Below are positions 42,947 to 44,317 of a stretch of 64,000 nucleotides of DNA, one piece after another. Both the position numbers and the translations under genes were made by a program. The notes beneath the pieces are model-generated. The model was given only the letters and a program-made list of their open reading frames with translations. It searched no databases and was not told the origin of the DNA. Position 1 is the first letter of the stretch, and every line of letters begins with the position of its first letter. The DNA comes from an uncultured Bacilli bacterium (GTDB taxonomy: Bacteria; Bacillota_I; Bacilli_A; RF39; UBA660). The stretch spans positions 1 to 64,000 of the forward strand of contig CANRDN010000010.1 in assembly GCA_947629375.1 (NCBI GenBank), in the 5' to 3' direction.

Positions 42947-43023
<77 letters not shown>

Positions 43024-43058
43024 TATTGATTAAATCTTGGATTATTCCAAGTATAATA

Positions 43059-43085
43059 AAACGACTTGAAAAAAAGTCGTTTTTA
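43059..43085 (+). terminator. tRNA-Arg terminator (overlaps the -35 region of sRNA1)
   Basis: AAACGACTT-gaaaa-AAGTCGTTT-TT. Confidence 0.65.
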
Positions 43086-43100
43086 TGTTATTATGAATTT

Positions 43101-43228
43101 GTCAAGGAAACTTGCATAAAATAAAAAAGGGAAATACTTAACTTTGCGATGTTGAGTACTTACCTCAAAATTAAGTCGTACTTAATCGAGAATAGTACTT
43201 AATCGAGTAGATTGAGTACTATTTTTTT
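43101..43228 (+). ncRNA. Candidate small RNA 1 (antisense RNA), with promoter at 43066-43094 and intrinsic terminator
   Basis: TTGAAA-17-TATTAT, CAAG-GAAA-CTTG hairpin, TACTTAAC/GTTGAGTA hairpin, terminator AGTACTTAATC-gagta-GATTGAGTACT-aT7; paralogous to 43506-43617. Confidence 0.6.
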
Positions 43229-43308
43229 ATGCATAGAATCATTAAAGAGACTATCAATAAAATGATAATTATTATTAGAAATGAGATTAGTAAATCTTTT
43301 TTCTTCAT
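43219..43308 (-). CDS. Candidate small hydrophobic toxin peptide, 29 aa (MKKKDLLISFLIIIIILLIVSLMILCIKK)
   Basis: Strong SD (ggaagGAGG, 9-nt spacing), promoter TTGTTT-18-TATAAT on minus strand (43373-43402), 3' end overlaps sRNA1 terminator. Confidence 0.55.
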   Translation of the reverse strand: MKKKDLLISFLIIIIILLIVSLMILCIKK

Positions 43309-43505
43309 ATTATCAAGCCTCCTTCCATAAGAAGTTGGCAAGTACTCAACAGTTAAAATATTTCCCGTTAAAATTATACATTAAAATGTAGAAGAAAAAC
43401 AATCGAACAATATGATTTTTTATATAAATTCTACGATTTTATAACATATTTTAAATAAAAGAAAAATTATCTTGCAAAAATCTTATTTTATGTTATTATG
43501 AATTT

Positions 43506-43617
43506 GTCAAGGAAACTTGCACAAGATAAAAAGGAAAGTACTTAACTTTTGCTTGTTGAGTACTTACCTTAGTTTAATTGGTTAAGTACTTAATCTACTC
43601 GATTAAGTACTATTTTT
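43506..43617 (+). ncRNA. Candidate small RNA 2, paralogue of sRNA1
   Basis: TTGCAA-16-TATTAT, same CAAGGAAACTTG and GTTGAGTACTTACC elements, terminator AGTACTTAATC-tactc-GATTAAGTACT-aT5. Confidence 0.6.
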
Positions 43618-43741
43618 ATTGATTCGTGTTATAATTAAATATATAAAGTTGTTATTTTGTTTTTTAAAATCCTTTTATAGCATAATAAAATTTTGAAAAA
43701 AGCAAATAGAAACAATGTTGATATTTAAGAGGTGGTTTTAA

Positions 43742-44317
43742 ATGAAAGAAAAAAAACTAAATGGATATACTATTGGAATAATTATAATTCTTTTTATGTT
43801 CCTATGCTATTGGGGAAGTTGTAATTCCTTACTAAGAAGGGCAAGTTTTGATGGTGATGCTTCTTATTTTTCAACGCTTCTTGCCACAATAAATGTAGTG
43901 ATAAACATTGTTATAGTTGGATTTATTCCTGTTATTATTAGATTAATTAGTAAGGATATTTATCGAAATAATGTTATTGTTATATATATCATCAATGGTA
44001 TTATAAGTATTTTTTTATCAATGCCTGTATATAAATGGGTATTAAATGATTTGTTTGGCTTTGAGGAAATGATTGAGACAGGAAATATTGGTGCGGTCGG
44101 ATCTTTAATCTTTTCTATAGCAATATATAATTTAATGAGAGGAAAAGAATCATATAAAAAAATAAAGGAAGGTAAGCAAGAACAAAGTAAAGAAAAAAAT
44201 GAATCAAATATAAACCAAATGTATGATGATTTACAAAAATTAAAAAAACTATTGGATGATCAAATACTAACGGAAGAAGAATTCGAAAAGGAAAAGAAAA
44301 GAATATTAAATAAATAG
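43742..44317 (+). CDS. Membrane protein with C-terminal SHOCT-like domain
   Basis: Four TM segments, C-term LQKLKKLLDDQILTEEEFEKEKKRIL. Confidence 0.7.
   Translation: MKEKKLNGYTIGIIIILFMFLCYWGSCNSLLRRASFDGDASYFSTLLATINVVINIVIVGFIPVIIRLISKDIYRNNVIVIYIINGIISIFLSMPVYKWVLNDLFGFEEMIETGNIGAVGSLIFSIAIYNLMRGKESYKKIKEGKQEQSKEKNESNINQMYDDLQKLKKLLDDQILTEEEFEKEKKRILNK

Follow-up and report, generated by a model that had tools for sequence, protein, structure and literature searches.

The small RNA gene at 43472–43617 on the plus strand of the window, the whole 64,000-nucleotide stretch of DNA analyzed here, is a full paralogue of a second small RNA gene at 43066–43227 on the same strand. We refer to them as RNA2 and RNA1, respectively. 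RNA1 is convergent with a putative toxin gene on the minus strand. RNA2 has kept its promoter, hairpins and terminator and has no toxin gene opposite it. Both RNAs belong to a small-RNA family outside Rfam.

RNA2 repeats the architecture of RNA1

The preliminary description of this DNA had proposed that 43472–43617 repeats the architecture of RNA1. This proposal is borne out, as the promoter, hairpins and terminator can all be read directly in the sequence. The predicted promoter (43472–43499, plus strand) consists of the -35 element TTGCAA (43472–43477), a 16-nt spacer and the extended -10 element TATTAT (43494–43499) with a TG one base upstream. In a promoter scan it agrees with the consensus at 9 of 12 positions, and its -10 block is conserved throughout the family. 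The RNA itself, an orphan antitoxin-type small RNA delimited by covariance models and a predicted start site, spans 43506–43617 on the plus strand. It begins with a constant domain, the 5' hairpin CAAG-GAAA-CTTG (helix 1, 43508–43519), followed by an A-rich linker, CACAAGATAAAAA (43520–43532), which in the alignment differs from the family consensus CATAAAATAAAAAA. The specificity hairpin (helix 2, 43533–43568) is composed of the arm GGAAAGTACTTAAC, the loop TTTTGCTT and the arm GTTGAGTACTTACC; its stem is formed by GTACTTAAC at 43538–43546 pairing with GTTGAGTAC at 43555–43563. The terminator hairpin (43585–43617), evident in the sequence and in a terminator scan, reads AGTACTTAATC-TACTC-GATTAAGTACT at 43585–43611, with TACTC as the loop, and is followed by ATTTTT. 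The promoter and terminator scans recover the predicted sites, and the latter returned four terminator-like hairpins where 0.1 would be expected in shuffled sequences.

RNA1 and RNA2 are spaced 405 nt apart and align in blocks of 47 nt (96% identical), 42 nt (86%) and 33 nt (88%). The covariance model R1 assigns RNA2 a score of 116.9 bits. The model R2, built without the window, finds both copies, at E values of 4e-13 and 4e-14, and the paralogy is therefore far above chance. RNA1 also contains a tandem repeat of GTACTTAATCGAG, 17 nt apart, between the specificity hairpin and the terminator (43178–43207), which is missing from most relatives.

RNA1 is paired with a putative toxin and RNA2 is an orphan

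RNA1, with its promoter (TTGAAA/TATTAT), was delimited by sequence, covariance models and scans, and is the cognate antitoxin-type RNA of a class-A hydrophobic peptide, MKKKDLLISFLIIIIILLIVSLMILCIKK, encoded at 43219–43308 on the minus strand. This peptide matches the toxin HMM at 6e-14, the sole such match in the genome, and is conserved in relatives; it is most likely a toxin. Its gene has a Shine-Dalgarno sequence, AGGAGG, at 43323–43318. The 5' leader of the mRNA (43337–43366, minus strand) repeats the arms of the RNA as GGGAAATATTTTAAC-T-GTTGAGTACTTGCC, and the predicted -10 element of its promoter, TATAAT, lies at 43373–43378 on the same strand. By position, RNA1 overlaps the 3' part of the toxin mRNA. 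A hairpin formed by ACGACTT and AAGTCGT (43058–43083), terminator-like on both strands, overlaps the RNA1 promoter at its -35 element and is absent before RNA2. Such a hairpin recurs in many copies of the family, with a stem of at least 7 in 16% compared with 1% of shuffled sequences. It may serve as a terminator for the tRNA transcript as well as for the toxin mRNA.

The type I layout, in which a small hydrophobic peptide gene faces an antisense RNA, is found at RNA1 and at about 156 of 201 surveyed copies, where the open reading frame is intact and encodes 24–37 residues. It is not found at RNA2. The toxin HMM score opposite RNA2 is 0.4, and the only open reading frame there is a 26-residue frame at 43635–43715 that starts with TTG and has no ribosome site. 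Thus, the earlier claims that the minus strand has no comparable hydrophobic frame and that RNA2 is an orphan antitoxin, that is, an intact antitoxin gene whose toxin frame is missing, are well supported by the comparative data. RNA2 is one of about 14 toxin-less copies among the 188 that are not at contig ends; another 8 face a broken toxin. The count is given as about 14 rather than 16, as at least one copy scored as having none (L177_-2079) has a missed toxin.

With the window-free model, RNA2 scores 101.8 bits and RNA1 107.8 bits. The paired copies (n = 102) range from 85 to 128 bits with a median of 111, placing RNA2 at their 14th percentile. As a group, orphan and broken units score below paired copies (p = 0.003), a rough comparison in that the paired set holds some training sequences and some loci were found by exact pattern. 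RNA2 is not a wreck, yet it lies toward the low side of the paired scores.

A family of small RNAs with at least five specificity classes

No Rfam family matched at its gathering score, and with relaxed thresholds the matches remained far below the cut-offs (the best, for example BsrG, 12.6 vs 55 bits). Of 293 genomes from the host's taxonomic family, 214 have covariance-model matches, and the host genome has eight copies. In a class-wide sample of 197 genomes, only one genome outside that family has a match. This copy (L209/L222, genome G466) is located less than 200 nt from the end of a 12-kb contig and could be due to transfer or a binning error. Where matches carry a name, they belong to Bacilli and Tenericutes of the gut that are uncultured, such as Candidatus Faecisoma merdavium.

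When 31 sequences from all classes are aligned, 92% of the cells are paired and 17 of the 24 base pairs have changed on both sides. Helix 1 is almost invariant, with 99% of its cells paired. Helices 2 and 3 covary strongly, with 91 double-changed cells compared with 6–28 in controls in which the partner was slid by 1–3 columns; in helix 2, both sides have changed in 7 of 9 pairs across classes. The covariation analysis was repeated without the window sequences. The preliminary description had named independent drift of the shared segments as the observation that would speak against it; the arms and stems stay paired across five specificity classes, and this check did not refute its reading.

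The arm sequences of the specificity hairpin divide the 201 copies into classes: TACTTAAC/GTTGAGTA in class A, ACATTCAGTT/GTTGAATGT in class B, ATTTGATT/AATCAAAT in class C, TACCTAAT/GTTAGGTA in class D and ATTCAAT/GTTGAGTG in class E. Each class has its own type of peptide, and the mRNA leader of that peptide carries the same arms as the RNA. Because the arms are self-complementary, each arm of the RNA can pair with the opposite arm of the mRNA, arm 1 with arm 2 and vice versa. Arm duplexes are, broadly, most stable between members of the same class, and classes A, B and E overlap. At one locus (L051, G006:C86), the peptide gene joined to a class-A RNA is broken and class-B-like, suggesting that modules recombine at the palindromic terminator.

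The arms of RNA2 fit the mRNA of the neighboring putative toxin

It had been noted that RNA2 is more complementary to the toxin mRNA than is RNA1, and this was confirmed: 43533–43546 of RNA2 complements 43350–43337 of the toxin mRNA at 13 of 14 positions, with one G-U pair, compared with 12 of 14 for RNA1. The energies of each RNA with the toxin leader were analyzed by partition-function co-folding, which did not separate the true pairs from shuffled sequences. Co-folding is uninformative here, since in both RNAs the arms form stable hairpins of their own, and it was replaced by the duplex energies of the arms. The arms of RNA2 form a duplex with the toxin leader of -19.0 kcal/mol, with 7 of 1000 shuffles as good; for RNA1 the energy is -16.2 kcal/mol, with 39 of 1000 shuffles as good. 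Both RNAs are thus complementary to the toxin mRNA beyond chance, as type I antitoxins are.

The mean energy of cognate class-A pairs is -17.2 kcal/mol, and class-A RNAs of other species fit the toxin mRNA of the window almost equally well (mean -17.2 kcal/mol). The better fit of RNA2 is inherited family complementarity rather than a special adaptation. In the whole genome there is a single class-A toxin and a single leader with a perfect GTTGAGTACTTGCC site. That RNA2 acts in trans on the neighboring toxin mRNA is, from these fits, only plausible. Mainly because published tests of cross-regulation between paralogues were negative, we regard repression in trans as close to an even bet. We also considered whether the constant 5' domain pairs with the ribosome site and dropped the idea: the energy in the window is striking, at -17.0 kcal/mol, but among class-A loci it is hardly better than that of shuffled sequences (-9.8 compared with -8.5 kcal/mol).

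The family resembles known type I systems

The layout of the family is that of type I toxin-antitoxin modules and resembles par without being par. As in par(pAD1)/Fst (PMC7472228), there are convergent promoters, a short hydrophobic peptide and a common 3' hairpin; repeats in the toxin leader are carried by both RNAs, and a stem is predicted over the ribosome site. The convergent promoters, as predicted from sequence, and the direct repeats crossed by both RNAs are both found here. In contrast to par/Fst, the family adds a constant 5' hairpin domain and a stereotyped position behind tRNAs, and its peptides show no sequence relation to Fst and no PXXXG. The Fst signature, a hydrophobic domain with P/D/S/TXXXG and a charged C-terminus, was not found in the class-A peptides; the peptides had no match in Pfam and none above cut-off in NCBIfam. 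Nor, judged by sequence, is there a bidirectional intrinsic terminator: a toxin-side U-run is present in 0 of 38 class-A loci, and the run is on the RNA side only. As both the peptide signature and the bidirectional terminator fail, assignment to par was rejected.

The duplicated type I locus zorO-orzO/orzP of E. coli (PMC3919570, PMC11264685) offers a second likeness. In E. coli a toxin-less antitoxin gene is widespread, about 30% of genomes being orz-only, and the orphan OrzPmg is transcribed in MG1655 as seen by northern blot (PMC11264685). The sequences are unrelated to those studied here, and the zorO-orzO layout is divergent, without a shared terminator. OrzP does not repress zorO (PMC3919570), whereas the arms of RNA2 fit the neighboring mRNA at least as well as those of RNA1. 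SprA1/SprA1AS and SprA2/SprA2AS of S. aureus are likewise paralogous convergent type I pairs; they are about 75% alike, reside in one genome and show no cross-regulation, and, unlike RNA2, both retain their toxins (PMC6393315). The type I modules of Clostridioides difficile (PMC6563280) also combine a convergent overlapping RNA with a small hydrophobic peptide in several copies per genome. Compared by description only, they differ in having longer, lysine-rich peptides, in being widespread in prophages and in that no constant 5' domain is described.

The modules lie behind tRNA genes

Of 199 copies, 50 have a tRNA on the same strand no more than 200 nt upstream, compared with about 2.5 expected, and the tRNAs are of many kinds. 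The distance from tRNA to RNA has a sharp peak at 69–73 nt and a second peak at 41–46 nt, and the spacer is conserved (GATTGATAGGAAACTCGAACTTTTCGAGT...). Examples are found in the window (43020–43092) and at L043, L055, L083, L104 and L161. Tandem units with a spacing of 350 nt are common (e.g., L121, L137 and L153).

The gene next to tRNA-Arg is present in 9 of 11 other genomes of the genus, and no module follows that tRNA-Arg in those where the subsequent sequence is readable. Directly after RNA2 (43742–44317) is a gene for a membrane protein with a SHOCT-like C-terminus. Because this gene occurs in 0 of the 11 genomes, it may be part of the insertion at tRNA-Arg. With the tRNA-Arg site empty and the downstream gene absent in the genus, there is no RNA2 orthologue to compare. 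No mobile carrier was found: the core motif has no exact matches in viral contigs, plasmids contain no similar DNA, and in a phage search the tRNA was the sole match.

A second locus has lost its toxin and kept its RNA

L128 and L156 are the same locus in two related genomes. The class-A peptide is intact in L128 and cleanly gone from L156. The tRNA-Leu and the RNA are identical at 265 of 266 positions, compared with 93% in the downstream coding flank. Over its roughly 128 nt the orphan RNA at L156 has a single change, for which p = 0.001 if it evolved at the rate of the flank. This hints that it has been retained, with the caveats that some divergence may precede toxin loss and that the RNA directly abuts the tRNA. 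No other class-A peptide was found in the L156 genome; a retained orphan thus needs no resident target. At both loci the CCA of tRNA-Leu and the small RNA are contiguous (L128:1890–1900, L156:138–146), leaving no space for a promoter. Since a promoter has no room, this RNA is probably cut from the tRNA transcript.

Discussion

We suggest that RNA2 is an orphan type I antitoxin left behind by toxin loss, possibly still serving as a back-up repressor, and give this reading about an even chance of being correct. It rests on comparison: membership in the family, conserved structure, absence of the toxin, intact signals and the fit of the arms. A tandem pair of toxin-antitoxin units would have arisen behind tRNA-Arg, and the second unit would then have lost its toxin gene. 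RNA2 is probably still transcribed, ending at its own terminator. Its first arm would bind the copy of the arm that the leader of the neighboring class-A toxin mRNA carries just upstream of the ribosome site. Through this pairing, RNA2 may repress the mRNA in trans, as a weaker back-up to RNA1. Several observations weigh against this explanation: the linker is off consensus, the orphan group scores lower, a loop contact with the toxin mRNA is lost, co-folding energies do not set true pairs apart from shuffled ones, and the orphan of L156 persists in a genome in which no class-A toxin was found, so that retention alone is no proof of a target. Some of them would suit a mere leftover of toxin loss, perhaps still transcribed and with no selected function, a possible reading that we consider on the unlikely side. 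Toxin-less and broken units recur, as decay predicts, and RNA2 shares the low scores of its group; however, its signals are all intact, the changes in its stems preserve pairing, its terminator stem is perfect, and the orphan at L156 has changed less than its flank. Retention at L156 could alternatively mean that orphans are kept to disarm incoming class-A modules that travel as units behind tRNA genes. Modules do follow a wide variety of tRNAs at distances of 41–83 nt, and species of the same genus have none at this site. We consider this rather improbable for RNA2, as a complete class-A module already adjoins it, RNA1 would do the same job, and viral contigs, phages and plasmids yielded no carrier.

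The terminator loops raise two further possibilities. The loop of RNA1 is GAGTA and that of RNA2 is TACTC; they are reverse complements, the sole such pair among 81 class-A loops. The toxin mRNA carries TACTC at the same hairpin position, that is, the same loop as RNA2. In par(pAD1), first contact is made loop-to-loop at the shared terminator (PMC7472228). By analogy of loop sequence, such initiation with the toxin mRNA could be possible for RNA1 and lost for RNA2, and RNA2 could contact RNA1. The computed terminator duplexes are -49.3 kcal/mol for RNA1 with the toxin mRNA, -44.6 for RNA1 with RNA2, and -25.4 for RNA2 with the 3' end of the toxin mRNA. The terminator of RNA2 might therefore be a mimic of the toxin mRNA's 3' hairpin that titrates RNA1, favoring toxin expression. 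Yet the palindromic stems would let any two class-A RNAs pair, which leaves only the five loop bases informative, and terminator hairpins seldom open; because of those few bases, we assign titration a low probability. It is very improbable that RNA2 has switched sides altogether, its inverted loop making it antisense to RNA1 and its arms continuing to bind the toxin leader. If true, RNA2 would have a dual action: as a third RNA competing for toxin mRNA and antitoxin alike, it would tune a type I module.

The family to which the orphan belongs, with its stereotyped position behind tRNAs, is a larger find than the orphan itself. Its putatively RNA-silenced membrane peptides in uncultured gut Bacilli form a large group that has apparently not been described before. 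A single constant RNA scaffold carries five or more specificity classes, and the family would be useful for studying how paralogous antisense RNAs are insulated from one another. Natural toxin losses, as in L128 versus L156, let the question of whether orphan RNA antitoxins are kept for a reason be tested directly.
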